A stretch of 35,844 nt of DNA from contig CALMYO010000250.1 in assembly GCA_937873685.1 (NCBI GenBank), forward strand, positions 1 to 35,844. The letters are read 5' to 3'. The stretch's first letter is position 1. Each line of letters opens with the position of its first letter. A model generated the notes under the pieces. It worked only from the letters and a program-made list of their open reading frames with translations. It did not search any database and was not told the DNA's origin. Position numbers and translations under genes: made by a program. Positions 18,501 to 35,844 of this stretch are shown one piece after another. This DNA comes from an uncultured Paracoccaceae bacterium. GTDB taxonomy: Bacteria > Pseudomonadota > Alphaproteobacteria > Rhizobiales > Rhizobiaceae.

Positions 18501-20015
18501 TGAAAGCGAGGTGACCAGCAGTTCGGTCTGCGCCGCAACGTCGAGCCGCGAATCGTCAAGCAGGGTGGAGATCTGCTGCGTACCGTCGCTCATTGTGGTG
18601 GCAAATTCGCGGGTGCGGTCGGCGAGTGTTTCGTTGATCTGGCGCGCGCGCGCCTCCAGCGCCTGGTTCAGCTTTTCGGCGCCGGTATCGAAGGCGGTCG
18701 CGCGCGTCTCGAAATCGGTAAGAAGGCTGCGCCCGCGCTCGCTGATCACCTTGTCGATCGCTCCGAGGCGCTCGTCGAACTCGGCGGTCAGCGTGCTTGT
18801 CGCGCCTGTCAACAGGGAGACCATGCCGCTGGCGCGCTTGTCGATCACCTCGCCTAGCCGCTCGCCGGCAAGATCAGCCTGTTCGGTCAGCCGCGCGACA
18901 CGTGTTTCGAGCAGGCTTGCGACCGCCTCGCCGGAGCTGGTCAGCTTGCCGGTCGCTTCGCCGAAAATCCGGGTCAGGTCGGCGCCGACGGTTTCGGCGT
19001 CGAGGCTGATCTTTCCGAAAACCTGGCTGCTGCTGGCTGTCAGCGCGCCCGCGAGTTCCTCGGCGGCGCGTCTGGCGTTTTCGCGGATCGTGTCGACGGA
19101 AGCCGCCAGTTCGTCGCGCAATTGTTCGTTGGCGCCAAAGATGGAGGCGCGCAGGCGCTCGGCGTGATTGATGATGCCTTCGCGCTGGTGGCCGATATCC
19201 TCGATCAGCGAACGCAACCGGATTTCATTCTCCGCATGGGAGCGTTCCAGTTGGGTCACTTCGCCCTGAACCATCGCCTCCAGTTCGCTGGCGCGTTCAA
19301 GCGATTTGGCAAGACCTTCGTTCATGGCCGTGATTTCGCGGCGCACGGCCTGCCCAACCACGCCGACGCGTTCGGCTGTGGCCGCTTCCGGCTCGGCAAA
19401 ACGGAAAACGATTCGGCTCATCGCATTCGCCATGTGCCGCATTTCCGAAGCGCGGCGGGAGATCACCGCGACCGTCCAGAACAGGAGCACGGGCAGCAAG
19501 GCGACTACCAGCGCAACGATCGCCTGCGGATTTTCGGCAAGCGCCGAGGCGGAACCAATACGCCAGATTTCCGGCGCATATAGGGCATGCGAGACGGCTG
19601 CGACGAGCGCGATCCAAACAAGGCTGACAATGGCGGCGATCAGGAAAGCGCCGCCGCGCGGCGCTTCCAGTTCGCGCATCAGCGCGGCATTGCGCGTGCG
19701 ATCGTCATTGGCGGGCGCAAACGGTTGAGGGCGGCGCGGCGAGGCAGGCGGACCGAATGCCTGGCGTGGCTGCGCCGGAGGTGGCGTGGCGTCCTGCGAA
19801 CGGGCGAGTTCCTCGGTGGCGCGCGAAACCTTGGCCTCGAAGTCGTCGAGCGCAAGCTCCTCGCTCAGTTCCAGACCTTCGGCCGTGAGGTCGCTTTCCA
19901 GCGCTTGCGCCAGGGCGTCATCAATCTCGGCTTCGGGTTTACGGGGGGTCTTGTTCACCGCCATCGCAGCGCGCCTCGCACTCTCACTCATCCCGGGATG
20001 ACCGGGAACTCGCAT
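12600..20015 (-). CDS. Giant membrane-anchored hendecad-repeat protein, growth-pole-ring (GPR)-like
   Basis: 2471 residues. Layout: an acidic then proline-rich cytoplasmic N-terminus (1-120), two membrane helices (about 122-146 and 165-186), a very long Asp/Arg/Ala-rich helical region (about 190-2230), a Pro/Ala/Gln linker, and a conserved-looking C-terminal ~135 residues (ETRQPLHMVESLNSLSIDIARAID to the end) rich in Arg and aromatic residues. Residues 453-1420 are 88 consecutive 11-residue repeats (see repeat entry). The size, apolipoprotein-like repeats and Hyphomicrobiales context match GPR of Agrobacterium tumefaciens, a ring-forming protein needed for polar growth; this is from memory, not alignment. 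The start is uncertain: ATG 20015 has AGGGA 4 bases upstream, but ATG 19991 and ATG 19964 are alternatives. The Hpt gene is divergent. Confidence 0.8.
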   Translation of the reverse strand: MRVPGHPGMSESARRAAMAVNKTPRKPEAEIDDALAQALESDLTAEGLELSEELALDDFEAKVSRATEELARSQDATPPPAQPRQAFGPPASPRRPQPFAPANDDRTRNAALMRELEAPRGGAFLIAAIVSLVWIALVAAVSHALYAPEIWRIGSASALAENPQAIVALVVALLPVLLFWTVAVISRRASEMRHMANAMSRIVFRFAEPEAATAERVGVVGQAVRREITAMNEGLAKSLERASELEAMVQGEVTQLERSHAENEIRLRSLIEDIGHQREGIINHAERLRASIFGANEQLRDELAASVDTIRENARRAAEELAGALTASSSQVFGKISLDAETVGADLTRIFGEATGKLTSSGEAVASLLETRVARLTEQADLAGERLGEVIDKRASGMVSLLTGATSTLTAEFDERLGAIDKVISERGRSLLTDFETRATAFDTGAEKLNQALEARARQINETLADRTREFATTMSDGTQQISTLLDDSRLDVAAQTELLVTSLSAVLEEKANDFATRLSDSTMQVTGLIDDKSDSFLGAIAERASEFSRAIDSRANALNDALDERSSSLIGGIYEKAGAMSDSLKIAANSLLSALDDRAAGLVSSFDDRANALTGALDTRSDTFASRWEDQASGFISGMDKRSGDMLAALHERTDAFGALLGENRSTLIAALDERHGKMATDFDERFGALIGGMEERSEEVNRRMELSASTFLSSLGDRTASLRDDFAARSASLLQGLSEQVRDFTEGWDEKAIALNTGFDIRAGQMHDTLDQKSNALLGGIDTRSTALGRDIAARSGELLGGLDERAENLISRFDDRAGALAGHLEQRATELIGGLDSSTAGLASALDTRVEAFSGALDERAENLISRFDDRAGKVASDLDQRSATLVGGLDRSTAGLVSALDARAQAFETALDSRSDRLLGGFDERNERIATEFDSRSSAFIGEMDQRANAFSATISDASAQMLDGLDIRAGQIRDDLDERAVRLFGGVDSRSQALVSAFDQRSIAFDTTMDERSRALLDGFDARAGDFNTALGGRTDAIESAFETHAKTVLGGMDERTTTLRNDFDTLSSALIGTLDSRTTGLVSALDARSGAFSEALDEKATGLLDGLDERRNLVETGFDTRVSSLIGEFDQRILEVSGALDMRSGAFVDALESRSSELLAGIDERHAAADAGFDERASGLLGGLEGRISQVVDALDMRSGAFSSALDDKTAYLLEGIDRRAGAVTQGFDERAENLLGGLDERAERMAMQMQEKSDSLLSTMAARANGIGVAFDERARSIASAIETGTSALQATLDDRGANLLGALDDRRSTLTGAFDARAGQLEQALQTSADRVGAALEQKSDRLTAALAARTEELETTLAQSQAGFDNAITEKARAVATLMDDRTHFVTEAIAGNIDRINSVFSEQTGVIDERTGTMHKALTMGVDGIRRTLEESAGAVARNLRETVQETNTSLRSEAEKTAELLSGHGEAFAERVGARIAESDARLRDHAQNILSASDQATHGFGERVNEATNRLQTGIDAATRLADERTSAISATFESGVERIASTLQSRTESAVSLLGDKATAAASYMQARTEDATNAFNSRVEAAANAFEERTDRTAKVIESVGESAAEAIRGRAQSAAEILKTRTEEIALTLGDGSASAAERLAPAAGQAAAAIGERSDAAARILLQRTGEIADTLGRGAESAANAFETRANQATETLRAQTVQSASLLEEGADALNKALDARTREASESLKARTQETVSAFDSATTAMAQAMQARAAETVQNLTQDVETATTALSRGADLARDAIVTRSTEAARTLGERTAELNTMLASRSAEIAQLLDETARPLVDQFAGSGEVFAQRLKDATESATDLLRSENKALVDALTARTAQTLAQVDGAESRLVGGVSSILERLSASSSSLSDLIAQASHNLESLDSRLSQTTSRFEVNAGRAAESIATSVSALDGNIGRLDGVSASTLSQVAEIAGKFEEHGAVLQSASELLGQAQSSLATTLDGRRDALERLIAGLVRKSDEISSTLQTYEQVVARMFEDADSRTRQTAERLSTSLQDAVSIAESRSRDTASEILSQLADAVSKAEAQSRETAAHMTNVIAETSDLAQAKSREALERIAAMIIGSSEQAQKRARDTAERIGALIDDAAGRSAERSREAMEKLAELLAELGDQAQNRTRQTASTLSKAVAESIEDAMGRFDAATQELRKSSETIRSELTETREDLRRGVFALPEETRESTAAMRRAVSEQINALKDLASIVKTSGRAFDVAPAPRRTAAAPAPVLETASAVPAQRAGVTGAPTLRGTLDPAPAQQQQRSSDGDGGRGWVSDLLRRASTESEPAPRPAAPAETRQPLHMVESLNSLSIDIARAIDHDTAMELWDRYRRGERNVFTRRLYTLKGQQTFDEIKRKYETDREFKSAVDRYVGDFEKLLRDVGRNDRDNMLTQTYLSSDTGKVYTMLAHASGRLR
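15756..18659 (-). repeat. 88 uninterrupted 33-bp/11-residue (hendecad) repeats inside the GPR-like gene
   Basis: Residues 453-1420 divide exactly into 88 units of 11 residues with no insertion or deletion. I checked the phase against DNA at unit 1 (18659), unit 33 (17603) and the end of unit 88 (15756). The consensus is roughly [L/F/M/I]-D-x-R-[A/S]-x-x-[L/F]-x-x-[A/G]. A 7-residue slip occurs on each side (AEKLNQA before, TGTMHKA after). About 40 further 11-residue units with a different signature, ending in Arg, follow on. Hendecads are typical of slightly right-handed coiled coils and of apolipoprotein-like helices. Confidence 0.9.
17388..17602 (-). repeat. Perfect 50-bp duplication, 165 bp apart, within the repeat array
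   Basis: Bases 17388-17437 and 17553-17602 are identical. The offset is 165 bp, exactly five 33-bp units. Both encode DERAENLISRFDDRAG. Neighbouring units are also paired (LDSSTAGLASA with LDRSTAGLVSA). This points to a five-unit duplication more recent than the rest of the array, or to gene conversion between units. Confidence 0.85.
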
Positions 20016-24255: not shown

Positions 24256-25041
24256 TCATGCCGCCTTGCGTTCGCCGTCCTGCCAAACCGGGCGTTCGCG
24301 ATGGCTGCGGTGGTGGGATTGCGCGCCGCGTGCTTTATGGGCCGCGTCGTAGAAATCGACGATCCAGCGTGCGAATTCGCCGCCTTGGGCCCCGCCCTTC
24401 ACGGAGTCGCGCGCCTTTGCCATGACTGCGGGGTCGATGTCGGCCTCAATGTAATCGAGCAGTCCGTCGACATAGTCCGGCGTCATTTCCGGATGGTGCT
24501 GCGTGCACAGGACATGGTCGCCAATCGAATAGGCCGAAACCGCAGCAATCGGGTCGTGGCCGAGAACGACCGCGCCGTCCGGCAGGCGCACGACCTGCTC
24601 GTTGTGGGCGCAGTAAAGCCTCAACGATTCATGGCGTTCGTCCATCCAGCCGAGATGGCGCGTGAACTTGGTCGTGGTGACGCCAAGGCCCCAACCGGCC
24701 TCGTTCTTCGCCACCTCTCCGCCGAGCGCCTTGGCGATCGCCTGATGCCCGAAGCAGGCGCCGGCGAGCGGAATGCGCCTTTCATGCGCAGCGCGGATCA
24801 GGTCGAACAGGCGCGCGATCCACGGCCGGTCGTCATGCACCGAGGCCGGGCTGCCGGTGATCAGGTAGGCATCGTAGTCGGCGATACGGGCGGGAAAGAT
24901 CCCGTCCTTGACCGAATACGTGACGAAACTCCACTGCGGCCGCAAGGGCTGCAGCAGGCGGCGGAACTTCTCCGCATCGTCGGGAAAGGACCGGGTGAAC
25001 GCCGAATCGTCGACGTCGGTCAGCAGGATGGCGACCTTCAT
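24256..25041 (-). CDS. Class I glutamine amidotransferase-like protein
   Basis: 261 residues from ATG 25041, with GGGAG five bases upstream; an in-frame TTG at 25056 is less likely. It has the triad-type fold: nucleophile C96 in GACFGHQ, and H183/E185 in QHHPE. Stand-alone members hydrolyse glutamine or gamma-glutamyl amides; PuuD of E. coli, which hydrolyses gamma-glutamyl-GABA, is in this superfamily. It is on the same strand as and 96 bases downstream of the GntR gene, facing away from glxBCD, so it probably belongs to the amine module. The C-terminal ~40 residues (HKARGAQSHHRSHRERP) form a basic tail. A gamma-glutamyl-amide hydrolase role is inference. Confidence 0.75.
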   Translation of the reverse strand: MKVAILLTDVDDSAFTRSFPDDAEKFRRLLQPLRPQWSFVTYSVKDGIFPARIADYDAYLITGSPASVHDDRPWIARLFDLIRAAHERRIPLAGACFGHQAIAKALGGEVAKNEAGWGLGVTTTKFTRHLGWMDERHESLRLYCAHNEQVVRLPDGAVVLGHDPIAAVSAYSIGDHVLCTQHHPEMTPDYVDGLLDYIEADIDPAVMAKARDSVKGGAQGGEFARWIVDFYDAAHKARGAQSHHRSHRERPVWQDGERKAA

Positions 25042-25137
25042 GGCGGCTCCCGTCAACCCTGGCGCATCTCGATTGTGGTGAGAGCGTTGCGGCTATGGCT
25101 TACAGTACCGGGACAACCACCCGGCCGGCATAGTTCG

Positions 25138-25797
25138 CTATCTTTCAAGCGCCTCGATCTGAAGATCGAAACCGTGCGCTATATGATCGACGATGGCTTC
25201 CATTGCAAGGGTTGGATTGCCGGTTTCTATCGCATCCGCCAGACGCAGGTGATCCCCCAGCGACTTGGCGAGATCGAGCTTCTCGATTGCCGAGAACAGG
25301 TTGTAAGACGTCGCCCGGTTCCAGATATTGTCAAACATTTCCAGGAGGTAACGGTTCCCCGTCAATTCCACCATGGTGCGGTGGATTTTTCGGTTGGCGT
25401 GGAAGTACGCGTCCACCGACGGCGAGGAGATGTTCTCCTCGCGCTCGATCACCTCGCGCAGGCGCCTGTTGGTGGCGGCGTCGTTCCTCGAAGCGAGGAT
25501 GCGCACCGACTGGCCCTCAATCGCAGCGCGCGCCTGGTAGAGTTCGCGCACCTCTTCCCTCGTCATCATGTACAGGGAAAAACCGCCGCGCGGCGAGGAA
25601 ACGAGGATTCCCTCCTGCTCCAGCCGCAGCAACGCCTCGCGCACCGGGGTGCGGCTGATCTGCAGTTGCTCGGCGAGTTTCTCCTGCACCAGTTGCTCGT
25701 CGCCGGAGATATCGCCGCTGCGGATTGCCGCCAGCAACTGGTCGTACACGATATCGGCGAGCCGCTGGCGCTCCAGCTTGATGGTCTTGAGGGCCAT
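25138..25797 (-). CDS. GntR-family transcriptional regulator, FCD (FadR) subfamily
   Basis: 219 residues. The N-terminal winged helix-turn-helix spans about residues 8-75, with the subfamily signature SRTPVREALLRLEQEG in the recognition helix. The C-terminal all-helical FCD ligand domain (about 80-210) carries conserved Asp/His residues (DAYFHANRKIHRTM, and H in GDHLRLADAI) that usually bind a metal and a carboxylate effector. It is divergent from glxB, and four copies of an operator-like 11-mer lie at its own promoter, at glxB and at the oxidase/ligase promoter. It is the obvious candidate regulator of the whole amine/microcompartment module. The effector is unknown; glutamate derivatives fit FCD ligand chemistry. 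Confidence 0.88.
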   Translation of the reverse strand: MALKTIKLERQRLADIVYDQLLAAIRSGDISGDEQLVQEKLAEQLQISRTPVREALLRLEQEGILVSSPRGGFSLYMMTREEVRELYQARAAIEGQSVRILASRNDAATNRRLREVIEREENISSPSVDAYFHANRKIHRTMVELTGNRYLLEMFDNIWNRATSYNLFSAIEKLDLAKSLGDHLRLADAIETGNPTLAMEAIVDHIAHGFDLQIEALER

Positions 25798-25828
25798 GCG
25801 CGTTTCCCCGTCGATTAGACTGTTTTTT

Positions 25829-25861
25829 GTATACGGTATCCGAAGGTGCGATATACAGTAT
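25829..25861. promoter_or_regulatory. Two operator-like 11-mers at the GntR promoter
   Basis: GTATACGGTAT (25829-25839) and ATATACAGTAT (25851-25861) match the 11-mer GAATACAGTAT found at glxB and at the ligase promoter, with 3 and 2 mismatches. Their starts are 22 bp apart, two helical turns, on the same face. They lie 32-64 bases upstream of the GntR start, fitting autoregulation. Confidence 0.5.
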
Positions 25862-25917
25862 CTCTGCCCCGCCGCAATTCCGTCGATTGTCGCACAGGGT
25901 TCTTGCGCTTCGAATGG

Positions 25918-25933
25918 ATACTGAATACAGTAT
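25918..25933. promoter_or_regulatory. Palindromic operator candidate upstream of glxB
   Basis: ATACTGAATACAGTAT has perfect 6-bp inverted arms (ATACTG/CAGTAT) around AATA, a size and symmetry typical of FCD-GntR operators. It lies 29 bases before the glxB start. It contains the 11-mer GAATACAGTAT that recurs exactly, inverted, at 31376-31386. Confidence 0.65.
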
Positions 25934-25961
25934 ACACAAAAGGATGCAGCGGGAGGAGCCC

Positions 25962-26906
25962 ATGTGCGGCATAGCAGGCCGGATATTGACCGGAATTGGC
26001 CGGGTCGGCGCCGATCTGGTCGAACTCATGGATGCGCAGGAGCATCGCGGCGCCGATTCGACCGGCTTTGCGATCTATGGTCCGGCGCGCGACACCGGAT
26101 ATGTGTTGCGCGGCATGGGGTTTGACAAGAACCGCCTCGGCCGGGACATGGAGGAGTTCCGCGCGATCCTGAAGGCGCACGGGTCCGACTTCCTTGAGGA
26201 TCCGACCTTCCTCACCGACGATCACAAGCATTACAGCGCCCGCATGATAATCCGCGACCCGCGCGACATCGCGCGCTGGATTCGTGACGCCGACACGATG
26301 GTGGAACACTTCGAGGTGCAATCCTGCGGCCGCTCGCTTGAAATCATCAAGGATATCGGCGGCTCGAAGGCGGTGGCCGACAAGCACGGCGTGCGCGACA
26401 TGCTGGGTACACACGGCCTCGGCCATGCGCGCCTGGCGACCGAAAGCTCGGTGGTGCCGAACGCCAGCCACCCGTTCTGGGCAAGACCCTTCCCGGATGT
26501 GGCGATCGTCCACAATGGCCAGATCACCGACTACTACACCTGGCGCGACCGGCTGATGCGCAAGGGCTACCGGTTCCTGACGCAGAACGACAGCGAACTG
26601 ATCGCGGTGTGGGTCTCCGACCAGATCGCAAGTGGGCTGACGCCCGCACAGGCGCTCAAGAAATCGATCACCTCCATCGACGGCGTCTTCACCTACATGA
26701 TTGCCGACGCCGACGGCATCGGCTTTGCCAAGGACCGCTTCGCGATGAAGCCGCTGGTCGTGGTGGAGCAGGGCGGCGAGATGGCCGCGGCCACCGAAGA
26801 ACAGGCGGTGCGCCGCATCTTTACCGGCGAATGCGATGTCATCAACCATGACGGCCCGTCGCTGACCGGCATCTGGGGCGTCGGCAACCGGAGTCTCGCG
26901 GCATGA
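25962..26906 (+). CDS. glxB: Class II glutamine amidotransferase subunit, GlxB/MgsA type
   Basis: 314 residues from ATG 25962, chosen because it puts the nucleophile at C2 (MCGIAGRIL), as Ntn-type amidotransferases need, and because GGGAGGAG lies just upstream; an earlier in-frame start would bury it. Further class II landmarks are EHRGADSTGF, GLGHARLATES and VHNGQITDYYTWR. It corresponds to the amidotransferase domain of glutamate synthase GltB, made here as a separate chain. In the N-methylglutamate pathway the equivalent MgsA releases methylamine from gamma-glutamylmethylamide for condensation in MgsC. The stop overlaps glxC (ATGA). The true amide substrate is inferred, not shown. Confidence 0.88.
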   Translation: MCGIAGRILTGIGRVGADLVELMDAQEHRGADSTGFAIYGPARDTGYVLRGMGFDKNRLGRDMEEFRAILKAHGSDFLEDPTFLTDDHKHYSARMIIRDPRDIARWIRDADTMVEHFEVQSCGRSLEIIKDIGGSKAVADKHGVRDMLGTHGLGHARLATESSVVPNASHPFWARPFPDVAIVHNGQITDYYTWRDRLMRKGYRFLTQNDSELIAVWVSDQIASGLTPAQALKKSITSIDGVFTYMIADADGIGFAKDRFAMKPLVVVEQGGEMAAATEEQAVRRIFTGECDVINHDGPSLTGIWGVGNRSLAA

Positions 26907-27595
26907 GCGAGGTGATCGTCGAGGCGGGCAAGCGCCATATCCGCGAAATCAACGAGGAGATCCAGGCGGCTTGCGCTGCCGGCCACAAGGTGATCGTGCG
27001 CAACACGCTTTCGCGCCACAATCTCGGCGTTGGCCTGCCGGAAGGCGCGAACGTGCATTTCGAAGGCTCGGTCGGCTACTATTGCGGCGGCCTGAGCAAG
27101 GGCGCGACGGTGACGATCGAGCGCAACGCCGGCTGGGCGGTGGGCGAGGGCATGCACCACAGCCACATCACGGTTGGCGGCTATGCCGGCATGAGCGTCG
27201 GCGCCGCGATGATCTCCGGCACCATCCACGTGAAGGGCGACAGCGGGCCGCGTTGCGGTGTCGCGATGAAGGGCGGCAACATCATCGTCGAGGGCCGGAT
27301 CGGCTACCAATCCGGTTTCATGGCCCATTCCGGCAAGATCATCGCGCTTGGCGGGGCGGGCCATTCCTGCGCCGATGCACTGTGGCAGGGCGAGGTGTGG
27401 GTGGCCGGCCCGGTCGACAGTCTCGGCGTCGACGTCAAGGTGGTCGAGCCGACGGCCGAAGAGGTGGCCGAGGTCGACGCAATTCTCGAACCGCTCGGGC
27501 TGGTCGATTCTTCTCGCAACTGGCGCAAGATGATTTCCGGACAGCGCCTCTGGTACTTCGAAAGCCGGGATGCAAGCGCATGGCTGATGATCTGA
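26903..27595 (+). CDS. glxC: GXGXG-motif subunit, GlxC/MgsB type
   Basis: 230 residues. This is the stand-alone version of the right-handed beta-helix at the C-terminus of GltB (also seen in FwdC). The repeating glycine pattern is clear: GLPEGANVHFEGSVGYYCGG, MSVGAAMISGTIHVKGDSG, MKGGNIIVEGRIGYQSG. It has no known active site; in glutamate synthases it bridges the amidotransferase and synthase domains, through which ammonia is channelled. Start and stop overlap glxB by 4 and glxD by 16 bases, so the three subunits are probably made in equal amounts. Confidence 0.88.
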   Translation: MSEVIVEAGKRHIREINEEIQAACAAGHKVIVRNTLSRHNLGVGLPEGANVHFEGSVGYYCGGLSKGATVTIERNAGWAVGEGMHHSHITVGGYAGMSVGAAMISGTIHVKGDSGPRCGVAMKGGNIIVEGRIGYQSGFMAHSGKIIALGGAGHSCADALWQGEVWVAGPVDSLGVDVKVVEPTAEEVAEVDAILEPLGLVDSSRNWRKMISGQRLWYFESRDASAWLMI

Positions 27596-29001
27596 ACACC
27601 CCTTACCAGTATCCGTTCCCGCAGCCATCGGAAGAGTCCGTCCGGTTTCGCGACGGCGCGATCGACGGCCGGCCGGCCGGCGTCCCCTCATCCTACGACG
27701 AGGGCGGTTCGACGCGCTGGACGCCGGAGGCAATCTCGGAAGTGCATGCGCTGGCGCAACTCGGGCGCTACCAGGTGCGCGGGTTCAACACCTTCAACAA
27801 GCGGATGCCGACCTTCGATGACCTGACCTTCGTGCCGGCGTCGATGACCCGCCTGCCGCTGGAAGGCTATCGCGAAAGCTGCGACACGACGACGATCCTC
27901 GGCGGCGGTCGCGGGCTTGTCGAAAAGCCGATCGAACTGAAGATCCCGATCTATATCGCCTCGATGTCGTTCGGCGCGCTTTCGGCCTCGGCCAAGGCCG
28001 GACTGGGCCACGGCGCCTCCAAGGTCGGCACCATGACCTGCACCGGCGAGGGCGGCATGCTGGAGGAGGAACGCGCCGCGTCGAAGACGCTGCTCTACCA
28101 GATGTCGCCGGCGCGTTATGGCGTTGATCTCGATCATATCCGGCGCGCCGACGCGCTGGAAATCGTGGTGGGGCAGGGGGCAAAACCCGGTACCGGCGGT
28201 CTGCTGCTCGGCATGAAGGTCAGCCCGCGCGTCTCCAAGATGCGCACCTTGCCACAGGGCGTCGACCAGCGCTCAACCATCCGCCACCCCGATTTCCTCG
28301 GCGCGGACGATCTTGCGGTGAAGATAGAGGAACTGCGCATCGCCACCAACTACAAGGTGCCAATCTTCATCAAGATGGGCGCGACACGACCGCGCTACGA
28401 TGTCGCCATCGCCGCCAAGGCGGGCGCGGACGTGGTGGTGGTGGACGGCGCCGAGGGCGGCACCGGCGCTTCGCCGGAACTGCTGCTCAACCACACCGGC
28501 ATTCCGACCATCTCGGCGATCCGCGCCGCGCGCGAGGCGCTCGACGAAGCGGGCATGACCGGCAAGGTCAGCCTCGTTGCGGCCGGCGGCATCCGTTCCG
28601 GCGTCGATGCGGCCAAGTGCCTGGCGCTCGGGGCCGATGCGGTGATGATCGGCAATGCGGCGATGATGGCGCTCGGCTGCAACTCGCCGCGCTATCTCGA
28701 CGACTACCGTGCGCTTGGCACCTCGCCCGGGGCCTGCCACCATTGCCACACCGGCCGCTGCCCGGTCGGCGTCGCGACGCAGGACCCGGAACTGGAAAAG
28801 CGCATGGATCCGCATGCGGGCGCCGAGCGCGTGGCGCGTTACCTCACCGCCATGACGATGGAGATAACCGCGCTGGCGAAGGCCTGCGGCAAGTCTTCGG
28901 TGCACAACCTGGAAACCGAGGATCTGCGCGCCATGTCGTTCGAGGCGTCGGCCTTTACCGGGGTCAAGATGGCAGGTATCGACAAGGCGTTTTCCTGGTA
29001 G
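27580..29001 (+). CDS. glxD: FMN-binding glutamate-synthase-family subunit, GlxD/MgsC type
   Basis: 473 residues from ATG 27580, inside the end of glxC. It matches the GltB synthase domain: PIYIASMSFGALSASAKAGLGHGA, GMLEEERAASKTLLYQMSPARYG, KPGTGGLL, the FMN-barrel sequences VVVDGAEGGTGASP and AAGGIRSGVDAAKCLALGADAV, and a cysteine cluster C386-x2-C389-x4-C394 in GACHHCHTGRCPVGVAT. GltB uses C-x5-C-x4-C for its 3Fe-4S centre, so the first ligand is shifted. Such enzymes reductively join an amine to 2-oxoglutarate; MgsC makes N-methylglutamate. With GlxB and GlxC it should form an N-alkylglutamate or glutamate synthase. Confidence 0.88.
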   Translation: MADDLNTPYQYPFPQPSEESVRFRDGAIDGRPAGVPSSYDEGGSTRWTPEAISEVHALAQLGRYQVRGFNTFNKRMPTFDDLTFVPASMTRLPLEGYRESCDTTTILGGGRGLVEKPIELKIPIYIASMSFGALSASAKAGLGHGASKVGTMTCTGEGGMLEEERAASKTLLYQMSPARYGVDLDHIRRADALEIVVGQGAKPGTGGLLLGMKVSPRVSKMRTLPQGVDQRSTIRHPDFLGADDLAVKIEELRIATNYKVPIFIKMGATRPRYDVAIAAKAGADVVVVDGAEGGTGASPELLLNHTGIPTISAIRAAREALDEAGMTGKVSLVAAGGIRSGVDAAKCLALGADAVMIGNAAMMALGCNSPRYLDDYRALGTSPGACHHCHTGRCPVGVATQDPELEKRMDPHAGAERVARYLTAMTMEITALAKACGKSSVHNLETEDLRAMSFEASAFTGVKMAGIDKAFSW

Positions 29002-29012
29002 GTCCTGCCTTC

Positions 29013-29738
29013 ATGCGCGTTGCCGTTCTCGATTGCTGCCAGCCCAATCCGCCGCGTCTGGCCGCCTGGCCATCCGTCGGCGGTGTGATCGTCGACTGGC
29101 TTTCGCCGCAGATGCCCGGAGTAGCGATCGATCGCATCGACGTATGGGGAGGCGACGCGCTTCCGTCGGTCGACGCCTACGATGCCTGGGTGGTCTCCGG
29201 GTCGGAAATGGGCGTCTATGACTCTCCGGCCTGGATGGCGCCGACGCGCGCCTTCCTCGGCGAAATCCGCACGGCCGGCAAGCCGGTCCTCGGCATCTGC
29301 TTCGGCCACCAACTGATGGCCGACACATTCGGCGGCATGGCCGAAAAGGCCGGTACGGGCTACGTGGCGGGGACGCGCCGGGTCGGTTGGGGAGAGCAGC
29401 AATTCGACGCCTATTTCCTGCATCAGGACCAGGTGAGGACCGTGCCTCCCGGTGCGGAGGTGCTGGCGTCGGCGGCGCATTGCCCGATCGCCGCGCTGGC
29501 CTATGATTTTCCGGCGCTGTCGGTCCAGTTCCATCCCGAATACGAACGCGGCTATGTGGAAGCGGTGATCGACTTGGTGGAAGGCGGCAAGCTCGATGCG
29601 GAGCGGGCGGCGTTCGCCCGCCAGTCCCTCGATGAAGGCGCTGTCGCCGGGCAGCTTTTCGCGCGGCAGGCGGCGGATTTCCTGCGCTCTGGCGTGTCGG
29701 GACGGGATTTCGCCCGGTCGATCGGTGTCATCGCCTGA
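29013..29738 (+). CDS. Class I glutamine amidotransferase-like protein
   Basis: 241 residues starting 11 bases after glxD, so part of the same operon. Nucleophile C96 in GICFGHQ and H174/E176 in QFHPEYE complete the triad. It differs clearly from the other class I protein at 24256 (for example SGSEMGVYDSPAWM in place of TGSPASVHDDRPWI). Having two class I enzymes in addition to the class II GlxB suggests hydrolysis of more than one gamma-glutamyl amide or recovery of a dead-end product. The C-terminal ~50 residues form an added helical segment (DAERAAFARQSLDEG and on). Substrate unknown. Confidence 0.8.
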   Translation: MRVAVLDCCQPNPPRLAAWPSVGGVIVDWLSPQMPGVAIDRIDVWGGDALPSVDAYDAWVVSGSEMGVYDSPAWMAPTRAFLGEIRTAGKPVLGICFGHQLMADTFGGMAEKAGTGYVAGTRRVGWGEQQFDAYFLHQDQVRTVPPGAEVLASAAHCPIAALAYDFPALSVQFHPEYERGYVEAVIDLVEGGKLDAERAAFARQSLDEGAVAGQLFARQAADFLRSGVSGRDFARSIGVIA

Positions 29739-29766
29739 ACCGGTGGCAACTTAACCGGTTGTTGAC

Positions 29767-29780
29767 TTGATCCGGATCAA
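29767..29780. promoter_or_regulatory. Perfect FNR/FixK box
   Basis: TTGATCCGGATCAA is a fully symmetric match to the FNR/FixK/FnrL consensus TTGA-N6-TCAA, 52 bases before the DUF6455 start. Activation from about -41 would put the transcript start near 29815. This predicts induction at low oxygen. Confidence 0.8.
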
Positions 29781-29831
29781 GGCGCGCACCCGCGTCGCGA
29801 TGTTTTCCTTTGTGCTGAAATGGAGGAAATC

Positions 29832-30191
29832 ATGACGTCGATCCTCGAGAAGTTCCGGATCTGGGGCGAAAAGGCCAACGATCTCGATTACATTTCCCGG
29901 CAGGGCGAGTTCTTCGCGGCCGACACCGCCGTGTCGCCGGTCGATGCGCGTCGGCTCGTTTCGGCGCGCGACGATGTACGCGAGCGCATGGTGGAAATGG
30001 CGGCGCATTACGGCGTCGGCCCGGCGCGCATCGACGCCAACCGGGGCGTCGCGCTGGATGTTGCGCTCGCCTGCGCCGATTGCGGCCATGTCGGCGAGTG
30101 TTCGCGCTATCTTGACGGCGACGACAGTCTCAGCGCCGACGATTTCTGCCCCAATGCCGGCCGCTATCGCGAGATGAACGGGCAGGCGTAG
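29832..30191 (+). CDS. DUF6455-type small cysteine protein
   Basis: 119 residues from ATG 29832, which has GGAGG five bases upstream; an in-frame ATG at 29820 overlaps that site. The C-terminal half has C81-x2-C84-x5-C90 and C106 (CADCGHVGEC then FCPNAGR), which could bind zinc or an iron-sulfur centre. I recognise this pattern as the DUF6455 family, of unknown function. The N-terminal ~60 residues are helical and polar. The perfect FNR/FixK box upstream implies low-oxygen control separate from the surrounding amine genes, and it is convergent with the flavin oxidase. Confidence 0.75.
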   Translation: MTSILEKFRIWGEKANDLDYISRQGEFFAADTAVSPVDARRLVSARDDVRERMVEMAAHYGVGPARIDANRGVALDVALACADCGHVGECSRYLDGDDSLSADDFCPNAGRYREMNGQA

Positions 30192-30202
30192 TCCGGCGAC
30201 TC

Positions 30203-31339
30203 TCACCTGCCGCTCGGGCTTTCCTTCGGCGACAGTTTCTTGCGACCGGCAATCCTGAACCGGTCGGCCGTGCCGTAATCGCGCATGCCGACGCCGGCGA
30301 CGAAATCGCCGAAGACCGGGCCGTGCTTGTAGAGATGGCCGGAGCAGCCGCCGGCCAGCAGCACGTTCTTGTGCTCGGGATGCCAGTCAACGATGAAATG
30401 CGTGTCGGGTGTCAGGCTGATCTGGTTGAACTTCGAATCGACCACCGGCTGGCCGACGAGGCCGGGGAACCGCTTCTTTATGTAGGCGCGAGTGCGCGCG
30501 AGCGTCTCGCGGCGGACCAGGCGCTCGTCCTTGTCGAGGTCGATGCGGTCCGGGATGACCACCGCCGCCTTGACGCCGGACCCTTCCGCTGAGGGCAATC
30601 CGAACGAGGTTTCGCCGTGGTCGATCCAGCAGGGCATGTTCTCCTGGTCGAAGGCGGTGCTGCCGTCTGGCGTCGAGGTGTACAGCACGTTCACGCCGAC
30701 AACGCGCGAGATCGGCTTGATGGTGCGCGGATACATCTCGCCCATCCAGGCGCCGGTTGCGACGACGACAAGATCGGCCTCCAGCGGCTTGCCGTCCAGC
30801 ATCAGGCGTTCACGTTCGTCCGTCTTCACATGCCCGCGCTGTACGATGCCGCCGGCCTTGCGAAACAGGTCGACGGCGGTGATGACGCCGCGATGCGCCA
30901 TCACCATCCCGGCTTCGGGTTCGTAGAGTGCGTAGGAGATGCCGGTCGGGTCAAATTGCGGAAACCGCACCGCGATCTCGTCAGGGGTGAAGCGGTGGAA
31001 GGGGACACCGAGCTTGGTGAAGGTCTCGGCCGTGGCGTCTTCCCAATGGCAATGGCCGGCTGTGGCGAGGATCAGCGCGCCGCACGGATAGATCAGCCGC
31101 TGGCCGGTCTCGGCTTGCAGTTCCAGCCAGCGGTTCCAGCTCTCGCGCGCCCACAGCGTATAGAATTCGTCACGGCCATGGATTGCGCGGATGACGCGGT
31201 TATAGTCTGTTGACGAAGCGCGAGAGTGTCCCGGTTCCCAGCGATCGATCAGCTTCGTCTTCACGCCCCGGCGCGCCAGGTGCAGGGCCGTCATGGCGCC
31301 CGCAATGCCGGCGCCCACCACGATCGCTTCGCTCTTCAC
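30203..31339 (-). CDS. FAD-dependent amine oxidase/dehydrogenase, monomeric sarcosine oxidase-like (DAO family)
   Basis: 378 residues from GTG 31339, chosen because GAGGG lies 9 bases upstream and the FAD-binding motif IVVGAGIAGAM begins 5 residues in; a TTG at 31360 is an alternative. The C-terminal block LTPDTHFIVDWHPEHKNVLLAGGCSGHLYK is typical of sarcosine and N-methylamino-acid oxidases. The cysteine that holds FAD covalently in monomeric sarcosine oxidase (about 7 residues before the TPD aspartate) appears replaced by Asn, so flavin is probably non-covalent. Such enzymes oxidise secondary amino acids to an aldehyde plus the primary amino acid. It is divergent from the gamma-glutamyl ligase with an operator between, so it plausibly oxidises an N-alkylglutamate. 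Confidence 0.85.
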   Translation of the reverse strand: MKSEAIVVGAGIAGAMTALHLARRGVKTKLIDRWEPGHSRASSTDYNRVIRAIHGRDEFYTLWARESWNRWLELQAETGQRLIYPCGALILATAGHCHWEDATAETFTKLGVPFHRFTPDEIAVRFPQFDPTGISYALYEPEAGMVMAHRGVITAVDLFRKAGGIVQRGHVKTDERERLMLDGKPLEADLVVVATGAWMGEMYPRTIKPISRVVGVNVLYTSTPDGSTAFDQENMPCWIDHGETSFGLPSAEGSGVKAAVVIPDRIDLDKDERLVRRETLARTRAYIKKRFPGLVGQPVVDSKFNQISLTPDTHFIVDWHPEHKNVLLAGGCSGHLYKHGPVFGDFVAGVGMRDYGTADRFRIAGRKKLSPKESPSGR

Positions 31340-31375
31340 CGCCAAACACCCTCTTGCCAAAGACCGGATATCTGC

Positions 31376-31395
31376 ATACTGTATTCAGAATACAG
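31376..31395. promoter_or_regulatory. Palindromic operator between the oxidase and ligase genes
   Basis: CTGTATTCAGAATACAG at 31379-31395 is a perfect 17-bp palindrome. Overlapping it, ATACTGTATTC (31376-31386) is the exact reverse complement of the 11-mer GAATACAGTAT at glxB. It lies 33 bases before the ligase ATG and about 36 bases before the oxidase GTG, so one bound regulator could control both. The adjacent GntR protein is the likely binder. Confidence 0.65.
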
Positions 31396-31428
31396 CCAAT
31401 CATCAAGTGGCGCACAGGGGAGGACTAA

Positions 31429-32724
31429 ATGGCAGGCAAGGTCTACAAGCTGCCGGAAGGGACGCACACAATCGCGCTCGGCATCGGTGACCTCAACGGC
31501 ATCATGCGCGGGAAGCGCATTCCGTCAACCCATTGGGAGACCACCTGCAAGTCCGGTAACGCCCTGTCGATCGCATTGTTCGCCATCGACATGACTTCCG
31601 ATGTCTGGGACACGCCCTATGTCAATTTCGGCAACGGCTATCCCGACATGCACATGTTCCCGATCCAGGAACCCGTCGCCATGCCATGGGAGCCGGGCGT
31701 GGCTGTGTGCATGGGCCGTGCCGAAGGCATGGACCACAAGCCGGTGCCGCTCGATCCGCGCGAGGCGCTGCTGCGCCAGGTGGAGCGCGCGAAATCCATG
31801 GGCTACACGGTCAGTGTCGGCGCCGAGCTTGAATTCTACCTGCTCGATCCCGAAACGCTGCGCCCGAAGGACAAGGACATCCAGGTCTATTCGCTGGTGC
31901 GCGCCGCCGAGATGGAGCATGTGCTCGGCGCCATTCGCCAGCAGATCAACGAAACCGGCATCCCGATCGAGCAGTCCAACCCTGAGTACGCGCCGGGGCA
32001 GGTGGAAGTGAACATCCGCTACGCCGATGCCCTGACTTCGGCGGACCGCGTCGTGCTGTTCCGTACTCTCGTGAAGCAGTTGGCGAGTGCGCACGGCTAT
32101 GTCGCGACCTTCATGCCGAAACCATTCATCGACATGTCGGGTTCGGGCTTCCACACCCATTATTCGCTGTGGAAGGACGGAAAGAACGCCTTCGCCGAAA
32201 AGGGCAAGCTGAACGCGACCGGACGCCAGTTCGTCGCCGGCCTGCAGAAGCGGATGGCCGAAACGGCGCTGTGCGGTTCTCCGACGCCGAACGGTTTTCG
32301 CCGCCGCCGTCCCTACACCTTCTGCCCGGTCAACACTTCATGGGGGCCGGACAACCGTACCGTCGGCATCCGCATCATCGAAGGCGAGGACAGCGCGGTG
32401 CGCGCCGAAAAGCGTGACGCCGGCGCCGACGCCAATCCCTACCTGCTGCTGGCGACCGACATCGCCGCCGGTCTCGATGGCATCGAGCAGGGGATGGAGC
32501 CGACGGCGGTTTCGCTCGGCAACGCCTACGAGGAAGCAGATGCTGCGCCGATCCCGACCAACATCCGCGACGCAATCGAAGCAGCGCGGGGCTCGGAGTT
32601 CATGAAGCAGGTGCTTGGCGAGCACATGTACGAAATCTACGTGCAGCAGAGCGAGCGCGAGGCCGGCTTCTTCGACAACCAGGTGACGCAGGTCGAGACC
32701 GACCGATACATCAGGAACTTCTGA
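31429..32724 (+). CDS. Glutamine synthetase-like gamma-glutamyl-amine ligase (PuuA type)
   Basis: 431 residues from ATG 31429, with GGGGAGGA four bases upstream. Landmarks in order: [13 protein letters not shown] (PuuA has TDLNGCFRGKRIP), AELEFYLLD with metal ligands E133/E135, [25 protein letters not shown] with H242/H244, [13 protein letters not shown] for phosphate/glutamate contact, and [12 protein letters not shown]. These match gamma-glutamylputrescine synthetase PuuA better than ammonia-using GlnA or the GlnT/GmaS type, whose N-terminus differs. It should join glutamate to an amine using ATP, the entry step of the module. It is first in an operon with two microcompartment shell genes (next start 2 bases on). 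Which amine is unknown. Confidence 0.88.
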
Positions 32725-32726
32725 TC

Positions 32727-32996
32727 ATGAGGATCGCGCGCATCACCGGCACGGCAACGGCGACGGTGAAAGACCCGAAGCTTTCCGGCCTGACGCTGCT
32801 GGTCGCCGACATCGTCGACGGCGCAGGCAAGGTGCTGGATCCGGCGGTGGTGGTGGCGGATGCCTGCTCGGCGGGTGTCGGCGATCTTGTTCTCGTCGTC
32901 TCCGGCTCGGCGGCGCGCGTTGCGGCCCGCACCGGCGGCCTTCCCGTCGACATGGTGGCTGCGGCGATCATCGATCACATCGACATCCGGGCGTGA
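32727..32996 (+). CDS. Bacterial microcompartment vertex protein (BMC-P, EutN/CcmL family)
   Basis: 89 residues, the right size for the pentamer that caps icosahedral shell vertices. It starts with the characteristic [26 protein letters not shown], and has the EutN/CcmL core [21 protein letters not shown] followed by [14 protein letters not shown]. The ATG is 2 bases after the ligase stop with AGGAA upstream, so it is co-transcribed. Together with the next gene it shows that this operon builds a protein shell. No C-terminal extension. Confidence 0.95.
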
Positions 32997-33028
32997 GGCC
33001 CAAACCCGATATCCAAGGAGGAACGAAC

Positions 33029-33337
33029 ATGGCGAAACCGGTCAGTGGCCAGATGGCGCTCGGAATGATCGAGACCCGCGGCCTCGTCGCGGCGATCGAG
33101 GCGGCCGACGCGATGGTGAAGGCGGCGAGCGTCACGATCATCGCGCAGACGAAGTCTGGCGGCGGGCTTGTGTCGACGCTGGTGCGCGGCGAGGTTGGCG
33201 CCGTGAAGGCCGCCACCGATGCCGGTTCGGTCGCCGCCAACAAGGTTGGCGAAGTGGTTGCGGTGCATGTGATCCCGCGCCCGCATGACGAACTGGAAGC
33301 CATCATCGCGCGGCTCGGGCCCGGCTCGGCCGAGTAA
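33029..33337 (+). CDS. Bacterial microcompartment hexameric shell protein (BMC-H)
   Basis: 102 residues, a single BMC domain. Family landmarks: [25 protein letters not shown], the pore segment K42-SGGG-L47, [15 protein letters not shown], and the C-terminal [12 protein letters not shown]. The ATG at 33029 has a very strong ribosome site (AAGGAGGAA), fitting a protein made in many copies. The pore reads KSGGG where PduA-type hexamers have KIGSG, so the serine lining the pore is a glycine here, which could widen or change selectivity. It is the only BMC-H gene within the window; others may lie beyond it. Confidence 0.95.
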
Positions 33338-33437
33338 TCGTCCCGGATTGTCCGCAGCGTGACAGGGCGTCCGGCGCGAGCCGGGCCGCCGGTATCGTCA
33401 GCGGAACCAATCGCTTGCAGCCGAAAGGCGACGACGC

Positions 33438-34637
33438 ATGATCGGATCGCAATTCGAGGAATTCGCCAGCGCGATGGCGGCGCGGCCCCGCGGACCCGAA
33501 GCGGGTTCCGCGCTGCGCTTCGACCGCATCGCCGTGCTCGGCGGCGGCGCCGATGCGCTGATGCTGGCCGCGCTCTGCCTTGCCGAAGGTGCGGCGGTGA
33601 CGCTGTTTTCCGCCTACGGCGCAGAACTCGAGCAGCTGCGCCGCGCAGGCGGCGTGACGCTGCGCGGCGAAGGGCCGATCGGCACCTTCCAGACCGACCG
33701 CGACGGGGCGCCGTCGATCCGCACCACCGGCGAGCTGGATGCGGCGGTGGGCATGGCGCAAGCGATCTTCCTCACAGGTCCGGTGCACAAGCAGCGCACC
33801 TACGCGATGGTGCTCGCCGAGCATCTCAAGGACGGGCAGGTGCTGGTGATCGCGCCCGGCCGCACGCTTGGCGCGGCCGAAGCTGCATGGTTGCTCCGTG
33901 TTGGCGGCTGCAAGGCCGACATCACGATCGTCGAGGCGCAAGGGCTTCCCTTCTGGATTGACGCCAACGGTGCGAGGCTGAACCTGGCCGCTGCAGGGCC
34001 GATAGCGGCCGCTACGCTGCCCGCCGGCCGGCCCGAGGTGCTCACCGCGCTGCAGCGCTTCCTGCCGAACATCCAACCGGCCATCGGCACGATCCATAGC
34101 GGATTCATGGACGGCTCGGGTCTGGTCGAGGTTCCGGCGCTGCTGCTTGGCGGCGCGGCGATGGGCGACGGCGGGCCGGCGATTCCGATGGGCGGCGTCC
34201 CGCTCGATGAGAATCGCAGCTTTCGCGCCCTGATCGGCCCTGGGCAGGCGTCGGTGATTGCTCGGCTGGCGGCGGAGCGGCGCAAGGTTGCCGCGCGGTT
34301 CGGCGTGCGCGACCTGCCGGATGACGACACCTGGATTGCAACCCACGCCGGAGCGTCGCGCGGGCCAGGGCGTCGCCCGGTTCCCGACACGAAGGCGTCA
34401 GCCGGAATCATCCGCTGCGCCACCATCGGTTCTCTCGCGCCGCTTGCCTCTGCAGCGCGGATCGCGGGCATCGACGCGCCGGCGACACAGGCGATGATCA
34501 CGCTCGCCTCGACGGTGCTGGGAGCCGATATCGGGCCGGCGGGCCGCAGGCTGGACGCGATCGGCATCGACGCCACCAACCTCGACGAGGCGCGGCGCGT
34601 GCTCGACGCCATTGCAGGGGCTTCGCGCCATGGATGA
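33438..34637 (+). CDS. Opine/octopine dehydrogenase-like NAD(P)-binding protein
   Basis: 399 residues. The Rossmann motif IAVLGGGADALMLAALCL begins at residue 31, followed by TLFSAYGAELEQLRRAGGVTL and LVIAPGRTLGAAEA (137-150), which parallels the NPGRTGGA segment of opine dehydrogenases; VEAQGLPFWI and an all-helical C-terminal half complete the likeness. Opine dehydrogenases reversibly join an amino acid and an oxo acid into a secondary amine using NAD(P)H. The His-Pro pair I remember for the catalytic histidine seems absent near residues 228-233 (GLVEVP), so activity may be altered. It lies 100 bases after BMC-H and overlaps the aldehyde dehydrogenase by 8 bases, so it belongs to the shell operon. 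A role on N-alkylglutamate is speculation. Confidence 0.65.
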   Translation: MIGSQFEEFASAMAARPRGPEAGSALRFDRIAVLGGGADALMLAALCLAEGAAVTLFSAYGAELEQLRRAGGVTLRGEGPIGTFQTDRDGAPSIRTTGELDAAVGMAQAIFLTGPVHKQRTYAMVLAEHLKDGQVLVIAPGRTLGAAEAAWLLRVGGCKADITIVEAQGLPFWIDANGARLNLAAAGPIAAATLPAGRPEVLTALQRFLPNIQPAIGTIHSGFMDGSGLVEVPALLLGGAAMGDGGPAIPMGGVPLDENRSFRALIGPGQASVIARLAAERRKVAARFGVRDLPDDDTWIATHAGASRGPGRRPVPDTKASAGIIRCATIGSLAPLASAARIAGIDAPATQAMITLASTVLGADIGPAGRRLDAIGIDATNLDEARRVLDAIAGASRHG

Positions 34638-35844
34638 TGACCTGAAGTCGATTGCTGCAGCGCGGCGCTGCGCGGAGACGGCTTTCGAGGCCTATCGGCA
34701 GTTCCTGGGGACGGATCCGGCGCGCATCAATGCGATTGTCGACGCCATGGCGCGCGCCGTCGAGCCGGAGGCAAAGCGCCTCGGAGAGATGGCGGTGGAG
34801 GAAACCGGCTACGGCAATGTCGCCGACAAGCGTGTGAAGAACCTGTTCAACGCGCTTTCCGTCGCCGACTGGCTGCGCGGCGTGACGACGCTTGGCGTGC
34901 TGTGGCGAGACGATGCGGCCAAGGTTGCGGCGATCGGCGAACCGATGGGCGTCGTTGCCGCGTTGATCCCGGTCACAAACCCCACCTCGACGATTATCTA
35001 CAAGGTGCTTTCGGCGGTGAAGGCCGGCAATGCCATTGTCTGCGCCCCGCATCCGCGCGGCGTGAAATGCGGCATGGAAACGGTGCGGATCATGGCGGAG
35101 TGCGCCGAACAGATGGGCGCGCCGAGGGGGTTGATCCAGTGCCTCGACCAGGTGACGATCCAGGGCACGGCGGAACTGATGAAGCATCGCCGCACCTCGG
35201 TGGTGATGGCAACCGGCGGACCCGGCATGGTGCGTGCGGCTTATTCGTCGGGCAAGCCGACGCTGGCGGTCGGCGCCGGCAACGTGCCCTGCTACGTGCA
35301 CGCCTCGAAGGCCGGCGAGATCGGCGAGGTTGCCGAGCAGATCATCACCTCGAAGAGCTTCGACTACGGCACGGCCTGCGTTTCCGAACAGGCGGTGATC
35401 GCCGACAAGGCAGTGGCGCGCGAACTACGCCACGAGCTGAAGCTGCGCGGCGCCTATTTCATGACGCCGCAAGAAGCGGACCGGCTGGCGAAGGTGATCT
35501 TCCTTGGCCGCCAGCGCATGGATCCCGAAAATGTCGGCCAGTCGCCAGCTTCCCTTGCGGGCAAGGCCGGCTTCTCGATCCCGCCGCGCACGCGCTGCCT
35601 GGTTTCCGAAGAGAGCGAGATCGGTTGGCAGAGGCCGCTGACGGCGGAAAAGCTGAACCCGGTGCTGGCCTTCTACGAGGCGCGCGATGTCGCTCACGGC
35701 ATCGAACTGTCGCACGCAATCGCAAAGTTCGAGGGCTGGGGCCATTCGGCCGTCATCCATGCCAACGACCCGCAAGTGGTGGCGCGCTACGCCACGGTGC
35801 CGACGGGACGCGTGCTGGTCAACACGCCGGCAATCCTTGGCGGC
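34630..35844 (+). CDS. CoA-acylating aldehyde dehydrogenase (partial, EutE/PduP/SauS superfamily)
   Basis: 405 codons are present and the frame is open to the window edge; family length is about 460-500. The start at 34630 overlaps the previous gene by 8 bases. Landmarks of acylating dehydrogenases: GVVAALIPVTNPTSTIIYK (107-125), KAGNAIVCAPHPRG, VMATGGPGMVRAAYSSGKP, GAGNVPCYV, and the nucleophile C250 in DYGTACVSEQ. They turn an aldehyde, CoA and NAD+ into acyl-CoA, a core reaction of microcompartments and also of sulfoacetaldehyde dehydrogenase. No separate N-terminal encapsulation helix is evident; the C-terminus, where one could be, is outside. It is presumably the shell cargo. The aldehyde is unknown. 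Confidence 0.9.
   Translation, partial: MDDDLKSIAAARRCAETAFEAYRQFLGTDPARINAIVDAMARAVEPEAKRLGEMAVEETGYGNVADKRVKNLFNALSVADWLRGVTTLGVLWRDDAAKVAAIGEPMGVVAALIPVTNPTSTIIYKVLSAVKAGNAIVCAPHPRGVKCGMETVRIMAECAEQMGAPRGLIQCLDQVTIQGTAELMKHRRTSVVMATGGPGMVRAAYSSGKPTLAVGAGNVPCYVHASKAGEIGEVAEQIITSKSFDYGTACVSEQAVIADKAVARELRHELKLRGAYFMTPQEADRLAKVIFLGRQRMDPENVGQSPASLAGKAGFSIPPRTRCLVSEESEIGWQRPLTAEKLNPVLAFYEARDVAHGIELSHAIAKFEGWGHSAVIHANDPQVVARYATVPTGRVLVNTPAILGG

Follow-up and report, generated by a model that had tools for sequence, protein, structure and literature searches.

Bacterial microcompartments (BMCs) were catalogued by Sutter et al. (2021) into 68 types, several of them of unknown function, and the main text of that survey describes many types that encode an aldehyde dehydrogenase but no obvious enzyme to generate the aldehyde. 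The N-methylglutamate pathway of methylamine use (GmaS, MgsABC, and MgdABCD) combines a ligase of the glutamine synthetase (GS) type with a GlxBCD-type synthase and employs glutamate as the carrier of the amine; in a paper on SAR11 bacteria, glxBCD is equated with N-methylglutamate synthase. Here, a locus is described in which the same ligase and GlxBCD architecture is joined to a BMC. It occupies positions 24256 to 35844 of the analyzed window, a stretch of 35,844 nucleotides that is the entire contig CALMYO010000250.1 (C250) of a 4.13-Mb, 298-contig genome with a completeness of 92%. The genes of this locus belong together, share one operator, and differ from a second, distant GS-GlxBCD set, and the half of the unit that handles the amine also exists without a shell. 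The locus fairly probably encodes a metabolosome for an amine, built on a glutamate carrier.

The proteins of the window were assigned to families by Pfam and NCBIfam profile matches, which bore out the gene identities proposed in a first-pass annotation, namely, a GntR regulator, GlxBCD, a flavoenzyme resembling monomeric sarcosine oxidase (MSOX), a GS-like ligase, the shell proteins BMC-P and BMC-H, and an aldehyde dehydrogenase. The putative regulator of the unit, with GntR and FCD domains (25138..25797, minus strand), is separated by a short gap from GlxB (25962..26906, plus strand), an MgsA-like class II amidotransferase with the N-terminus MCGIAG (GATase_6, 7.6e-16), MgsB-like GlxC (26903..27595, plus strand; GXGXG domain, 9.3e-15), and MgsC-like GlxD, the glutamate synthase central domain (27580..29001, plus strand; Glu_synthase, 1.5e-96), that is, the three-gene split of glutamate synthase that constitutes the N-methylglutamate synthase architecture. 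The MSOX-like FAD enzyme FAO (30203..31339, minus strand; DAO, 9.4e-41) precedes the GS-like, putative gamma-glutamyl-amine ligase (31429..32724; Gln-synt_C, 3.9e-92), which is followed, like it on the plus strand, by the shell pentamer BMC-P (32727..32996; EutN_CcmL, PF03319, 1.6e-21), the shell hexamer BMC-H (33029..33337; PF00936, 2.6e-25), ODHl, a 399-residue oxidoreductase with an opine dehydrogenase fold (33438..34637; fold and profile), and a EutE-type acylating aldehyde dehydrogenase (34630..35844; TIGR02518, 3.8e-128). The earlier identification of this last gene stands, with the correction that it runs off the contig end and that its C-terminal part is the start of contig C182 (C182:2-148). 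TPAILGG stands at the end of the window and LEPSF at the start of C182; because the aldehyde dehydrogenase of relatives is unbroken there (...TPAIMGGMGYSTALEPSF...), about 17 bases appear to be missing between the two contigs. From this point onward, C182 encodes, by profile, a CcmP-like BMC-T, a malate dehydrogenase (MDH) that is extended at its N-terminus, RidA, and a binding protein of the LivK type, followed by LivHMGF-like genes and then hut genes (both named by eye).

In the route that these genes suggest, a HAAT-type (LivKHMGF-type) transporter would import the substrate, the GS-like ligase would convert the amine to a gamma-glutamyl amide, and GlxBCD, probably acting on this amide and 2-oxoglutarate, would transfer the amine onto the latter to yield an N-alkylglutamate. 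FAO would then oxidize the N-alkylglutamate to an aldehyde and glutamate (with H2O2), with RidA aiding hydrolysis of the imine; the BMC would take up the aldehyde, and the EutE-type dehydrogenase would convert it to acyl-CoA, the NADH being reoxidized by the extended MDH, possibly also by ODHl, instead of by an alcohol dehydrogenase as is usual. All these reactions, the set of enclosed enzymes, and the substrate are predictions from sequence. That the dehydrogenase is related to EutE weakly favors a C2-C3 aldehyde, and ethylamine, ethanolamine, aminopropanols, and omega-amino acids would all fit, none being favored beyond that relationship. The first-pass annotation had proposed a similar scheme in which every gene type has a job, which proved too simple: the ODHl gene was overlooked, there was no step for ODHl, MDH, or RidA, and 24256-25041, 29013-29738, and 29832-30191 were likewise missing from its gene list.

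This type of locus is conserved. Matches of ODHl in a scan of one-per-species genomes, restricted to relatives sharing one of two short ODHl motifs, define 68 loci, in which gene presence was scored as a tblastn match at 1e-5; many of the contigs are truncated, and the weaker matches (GATa, GATb, and the DUF protein, all three described below, and some Liv genes) may be nonorthologous. By record titles, the carriers belong to Rhizobiales, Rhodobacterales, and several groups of gammaproteobacteria (Granulosicoccaceae, Arenicellales, a SUP05-clade bin, and Immundisolibacterales), and many of the genera are known as marine. Among the carriers with names are Ruegeria profundi ZGT108, Ruegeria sp. 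ANG-R, Hoeflea alexandrii, Hoeflea poritis E7-10, Sulfitobacter aestuariivivens, and Lentibacter algarum. Shell genes are present in the same arrangement at all 68 loci. BMC-H (67 loci) and BMC-P (66), whose joint presence is one mark of a metabolosome, and the aldehyde dehydrogenase (66), another such mark, form the core together with the ligase (66) and FAO (65); BMC-T (63), MDH (60), RidA (58), and LivK (48) follow, and GlxB (36), GntR (35), GATb (26), DUF (12), and GATa (2) are variable. Of the 199 genomes from the window's order that were scanned, 28 match PF00936. ODHl is found in 8, which are exactly the 8 in which tblastn located the BMC locus; the gene-by-gene comparison covered 15 of the 28. 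The 68 loci and the 199 genomes overlap (several contigs are identical) and are thus not independent samples, and the counts ignore relatedness. Three further BMC loci that were fetched (L049 to L051) show little match to the window's locus beyond the shell genes. Near the 68 loci, the largest additional gene cluster, short-chain-dehydrogenase-like (named by eye), occurs at 13 loci and at scattered distances, and the others occur at no more than 5. A plasmid location was considered and rejected, neither ODHl nor GlxB having a match among 72,556 plasmids. A different kind of BMC locus, in which BMC-H is combined with two BMC-T genes and the aldehyde dehydrogenase is 36 to 39% identical, was observed in four other genomes of the order and as a second locus in G181 (L044 to L048), a genome that carries it besides the window's type.

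GlxBCD is tied to the BMC as first proposed, with the amendment that it is not always in the locus. GlxB lies in cis (61% identity or more) at 36 of the 68 loci, and at 41 if partial clusters are included, namely, 5 in which GlxC or GlxD alone stands at a contig edge; the remaining 27 loci have none. In 24 of these 27 genomes, an unlinked GlxB of 64 to 82% identity is present, the next paralogue being 38 to 43% identical, and wherever such a cluster was fetched it is connected to the unit by the operator described below. One of the three misses (L065) has the same length and coordinates as L042, in whose genome a separate contig (L041) bears GlxC and GlxD. Altogether, at least part of GlxBCD is encoded in the locus or elsewhere in the genome in 66 of 68 cases. 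Within the order, GlxB at 67% identity or more is found in seven of the eight genomes with the ODHl-bearing BMC versus 1 of the 191 others, the next best match being 44% (Fisher p 3e-11, uncorrected for relatedness), and in a sample of 398 genomes of the phylum, the window's own is the only one with GlxB at E<=1e-80. Liv genes lie directly upstream of GlxBCD in three fetched genomes (L052, L054, and L123). In two genomes, a second DAO flavoenzyme, 25% identical to FAO, is located beside the trans GlxBCD (L139, 9148-10206; L130, 4366-5394).

The operator ATACNGTAT occurs at four sites in the window, compared with 0.02 expected in shuffled sequence, which confirms the shared operators noted in the first pass. 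Three of these sites are in the GntR-GlxB gap (ATACGGTAT at 25831..25839, ATACAGTAT at 25853..25861, and ATACAGTAT again at 25925..25933, upstream of glxB), and one is between FAO and the ligase (ATACTGTAT at 31376..31384). Across the 68 loci, the operator is present in 62 of 65 FAO-ligase gaps, in its exact form in 29 of 34 GntR-GlxB gaps, and upstream of 14 of 47 LivK genes; 130 of the 138 sites fall into these three kinds of region, with 8 in the other 1.2 Mb. Where GlxB is apart from the shell genes, an operator lies within 120 bases upstream in 16 of 16 cases (L123, L128 to L140, L052, and L054), compared with 0 of 4 loci for the paralogous GlxB. Of the 14 trans loci, 11 encode a relative of GntR (48 to 77% identical) near GlxB, and GntR itself presumably binds ATACNGTAT. 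The 68 loci, the operator, and the co-occurrence within the order thus bear out the earlier claim that ligase, GlxBCD, flavoenzyme, and a BMC with an acylating dehydrogenase form one conserved, coregulated unit.

A second GlxB, 39 to 41% identical, is part of a separate GS-GlxBCD cluster in the four BMC-bearing genomes that were checked (G181, G133, G214, and G199; L124 to L127). The ligases of this set are ∼30% identical to the BMC ligase, and a DAO flavoprotein adjoins the ligase in two of the four clusters (L126 and L127). In the one genome scanned, a neighbor of the second set is trimethylamine monooxygenase (Tmm; L124, 797.7 bits against a cutoff of 675), and the second set presumably handles methylamine. 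The analogy with a glutamate carrier, drawn in the first pass, gains from this separate set and its Tmm neighbor as well as from the altered active-site motifs of the BMC ligase discussed below.

The same operator also accompanies a version of the unit without a shell. A search of 337 genomes from the class found GlxB (E<=1e-80) in 3, the window's, G417 (76% identity), and G226 (65%), and ODHl in 1, the window's. Neither the G417 nor the G226 genome has a match to PF00936. Each contains a single locus with GntR (41 to 44%), RidA (61 to 63%), GlxBCD (65 to 84%), and a ligase 65 to 67% identical to the window's, along with a different HAAT-like transporter, a 431- to 432-residue FAD enzyme, a classical non-acylating aldehyde dehydrogenase, and three ATACNGTAT sites. 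In G417, the proteins of which were profiled, the flavoenzyme belongs to DAO with L-pipecolate oxidase as the closest family model, far below the cutoff, and the aldehyde dehydrogenase is closest to an aminobutyraldehyde model, also below the cutoff. The two ligases fall in or beside the clade of BMC ligases, a weak placement (support of 0.45 and 0.37). This comparison, which rests on two genomes, supports a division of the unit into a part that would make the aldehyde (transporter, ligase, GlxBCD, DAO enzyme, and RidA) and a downstream half (shell, acylating dehydrogenase, ODHl, and MDH) that would replace a soluble dehydrogenase. The contribution of the shell is therefore directly testable by comparing the shell-bearing with the shell-less regulon.

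An alternative assigns the signature reaction to ODHl: as a derived opine dehydrogenase enclosed by the shell, it would oxidize the N-alkylglutamate with NAD+ to aldehyde and glutamate. N-alkylglutamates resemble nopaline-type opines, and the AlphaFold model of ODHl (mean pLDDT of 87) has 1bg6 as its best PDB match (Foldseek E of 1e-21, target TM-score of 0.83), followed by octopine and metallophore opine dehydrogenases, in agreement with a match to the opine dehydrogenase profile (E of 2.7e-19). In this model, a helix (residues 3 to 14) and a linker with confidence partly below 50 precede the confident core and resemble a cargo tag. However, 66 of 67 rows have Glu in the column of the catalytic His, and the column of the Asp holds Gly (41), Ala (25), or Val (1), with Asp (38), Cys (26), or Ser (3) one column further on, although this His-Asp dyad is said in the literature to be conserved in opine dehydrogenases of any organism. 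Moreover, the shell-less loci have no ODHl yet do encode a DAO flavoenzyme. Because of these loci and the loss of the dyad, ODHl was demoted as the signature enzyme, and this route is considered unlikely. As for the helix, its hydrophobic moment against shuffles (median p of 0.11) leaves a canonical encapsulation peptide unproven; the helix and linker of ODHl and the extension of MDH only suggest encapsulation.

Even less probable is a gamma-glutamylation route resembling Puu or GlnA4, in which the flavoenzyme would oxidize the gamma-glutamyl amine, the aldehyde would be processed, GATb would cleave the gamma-glutamyl bond, and GlxBCD would have another role. The GS-like ligase, a DAO enzyme, an aldehyde dehydrogenase, and, at 26 of 68 loci, GATb are indeed all present, and an ethanolamine version of such a route is described in a review. 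Such a route nevertheless explains neither the acylating dehydrogenase nor why GlxBCD, whether linked or unlinked, stands under the same operator, and GATb is unmatched at 42 of the 68 loci. The residues of FAO also speak against it. With 168 of the 480 bits of the soxA_mon cutoff, FAO is below the threshold for monomeric sarcosine oxidase, but it keeps the equivalents of MSOX Arg49 and Arg52 (65 of 66 rows each) and Lys265 and Lys348 (66 of 66 each); Tyr55 is replaced by His in the window's FAO, and at the position of Cys315, 53 of the 66 rows have Asn and 11 have Cys. Arg52, Tyr55, and Lys348 are reported to hold the substrate carboxylate in Sox enzymes, so that the two of these three that FAO keeps, Arg52 and Lys348, are what would be expected if its substrate is an N-substituted amino acid.

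It is very unlikely that GS and GlxBCD merely assimilate ammonia released by some other BMC pathway, as a module resembling GS and glutamate synthase, even though the GS is homologous to GlnA and GlxBCD to the domains of glutamate synthase. The ligase scores below the cutoffs of both the type III GS model (250.8 of 469.6 bits) and the PuuA model (206.7 of 650) and, unlike the top-scoring glutamine synthetase encoded in the same genome, has neither the FDGSSI motif nor the flap Glu. This loss is no sharp test, because GlnA2, an amine ligase, keeps Glu at 327, which is discussed together with Ser53 as an ammonium-site residue in the literature on these enzymes. Furthermore, the locus showed no other enzyme that would generate an aldehyde, Tmm in L124 adjoins a GlxBCD of the same architecture, and glxBCD has been proposed to be N-methylglutamate synthase in SAR11. 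That a BMC locus lies beside an unrelated amine locus by chance, as the unlinked GlxBCD of many genomes might suggest, is hardly credible given the co-occurrence and the operators shared in cis and in trans, the counts of which are strongly against it.

In the glutamate-carrier metabolosome, the shell proteins would form a compartment and enclose enzymes. BMC-H is closest to the EutM model, BMC-P to CcmL, and BMC-T to CcmP, all below the cutoff, and the aldehyde dehydrogenase, truncated where the contig stops, reaches 428 bits, below the TIGR02518 cutoff of 620. MDH scores 315 bits, above the malate dehydrogenase subfamily cutoff of 283; past an N-terminal extension of ∼90 residues, it has Arg172 and the His of GSHGD, which we take to be the substrate-loop Arg and the catalytic His, invariant in 60 of 60 rows. 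The C-terminus of FAO (window 30203-30220, minus strand) reads SPSGR in 64 of 65 orthologues despite a variable preceding tail and is coil in the structure model. A more specific and doubtful version of the proposal is that the locus represents a metabolosome class in which an oxygen-using flavoenzyme, docked via the SPSGR tail, would free the aldehyde from the glutamate-bound amine, while the lumen would trade reducing power as oxaloacetate and malate through a shell-targeted MDH and a neofunctionalized opine dehydrogenase, replacing the core of alcohol dehydrogenase and PduL.

Several observations weigh against the glutamate-carrier metabolosome. The flavoenzyme of the shell-less loci is a different DAO enzyme, not orthologous to FAO, and FAO has no recognized encapsulation peptide. 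ODHl has no assigned step in the proposed route, and the electron donor for GlxBCD is not accounted for. GlxB was not found in a search of the L063 and L068 genomes, whereas the single other genome of the order that has it (G038) contains a LivHMGF-GlxBCD contig fragment but lacks both ODHl and shell genes arranged in this way; in addition, 5 of the 34 GntR-GlxB gaps are without the exact operator. Finally, PduL (PF06130), a phosphotransacylase (PTAC) and a further mark of metabolosomes, has no match in the 92%-complete genome, because of which the recycling of CoA is unexplained. The RMM and MIC types are likewise described as lacking a complete core.

The remaining genes around the unit are less constant. 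GATa, a class I glutamine amidotransferase-like protein identified by profile (24256..25041, minus strand), flanks GntR, and a second protein of this kind, GATb (29013..29738, plus strand), and a small protein with a weak DUF6455 match (29832..30191, plus strand) lie between GlxD and FAO. Relatives of GATa (52 to 53%) follow GntR in two trans GlxBCD clusters (L128 and L129), and GATa may therefore belong to the regulon. Elsewhere in the window, the minus strand at 12600-20015 has an open frame of 2,471 residues with coding-like GC content at third codon positions. On C182, right after the BMC operon (L003, 7160-16964), hut genes, a HutC-like regulator, and TRAP-like transporter genes were named by eye. 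A link to histidine was considered and dropped: among 98 related loci scanned, only L136 has hut genes, there near GlxBCD, so that their position after the operon is put down to coincidence. Solved binding proteins give little indication of the transporter's solute, the closest of them matching weakly (best 2.9e-10).

If the proposal is correct, it provides a signature pathway for a BMC type spread over Alpha- and Gammaproteobacteria, applies the principle of a glutamate carrier, as in methylamine use, to a larger amine, and describes a metabolosome without the core of alcohol dehydrogenase and PduL. A literature search found no description of a set of ligase, GlxBCD, flavoenzyme, and BMC; the main text of Sutter et al. 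(2021) contains none of the terms "glutam," "sarcosine," "amine," "malate," or "lactate," and its supplementary locus catalogue was outside this comparison. That catalogue may already include this locus among the BMC types without an assigned function, perhaps under an anonymous type name. Some of the carrier genomes were presumably public by the time of that survey. Should the locus be one of the types that lack an aldehyde source, the proposal would give that type a testable function.

Among known systems, the ethanolamine metabolosome (EUT) has the EutE-type aldehyde dehydrogenase in common with this locus but employs EutBC and an alcohol dehydrogenase, neither of which turned up in a search confined to the C182 operon and the window from 24256 onward. 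RMM1 and RMM2, as described, share regulation by GntR and a proposed amine-derived aldehyde; their phosphotransferase, short-chain dehydrogenase, and amino acid permease were not seen in this genome's operon, read past LivF on C182 with genes partly named by eye, so that the genes to the right of the window are, as the first-pass proposal requires, not of the RMM type, and ligase, GlxBCD, and FAO stand in place of the RMM enzymes. MIC1 (metabolosome with incomplete core) shares, according to its description, an aldehyde dehydrogenase, a lactate/malate-type dehydrogenase, and the lack of a PTAC. The Puu and GlnA4 gamma-glutamylation routes have a GS-like ligase and an aldehyde dehydrogenase in common with the locus, whereas the accounts of them that were covered describe no GlxBCD or shell, and the aldehyde dehydrogenase of this locus is an acylating one. 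The N-methylglutamate pathway shares the ligase, the GlxBCD architecture, and glutamate as the carrier, and its last step, too, is carried out by a sarcosine-oxidase-family enzyme, according to the SAR11 work. Sequences were compared solely with the presumed methylamine-type paralogues of the second set, at the identities given above for GlxB and ligase. The two systems part at the oxidation step: the methylamine pathway has a four-subunit Mgd, whereas here the flavoenzyme is of the monomeric type and is associated with an acylating aldehyde dehydrogenase and a shell.

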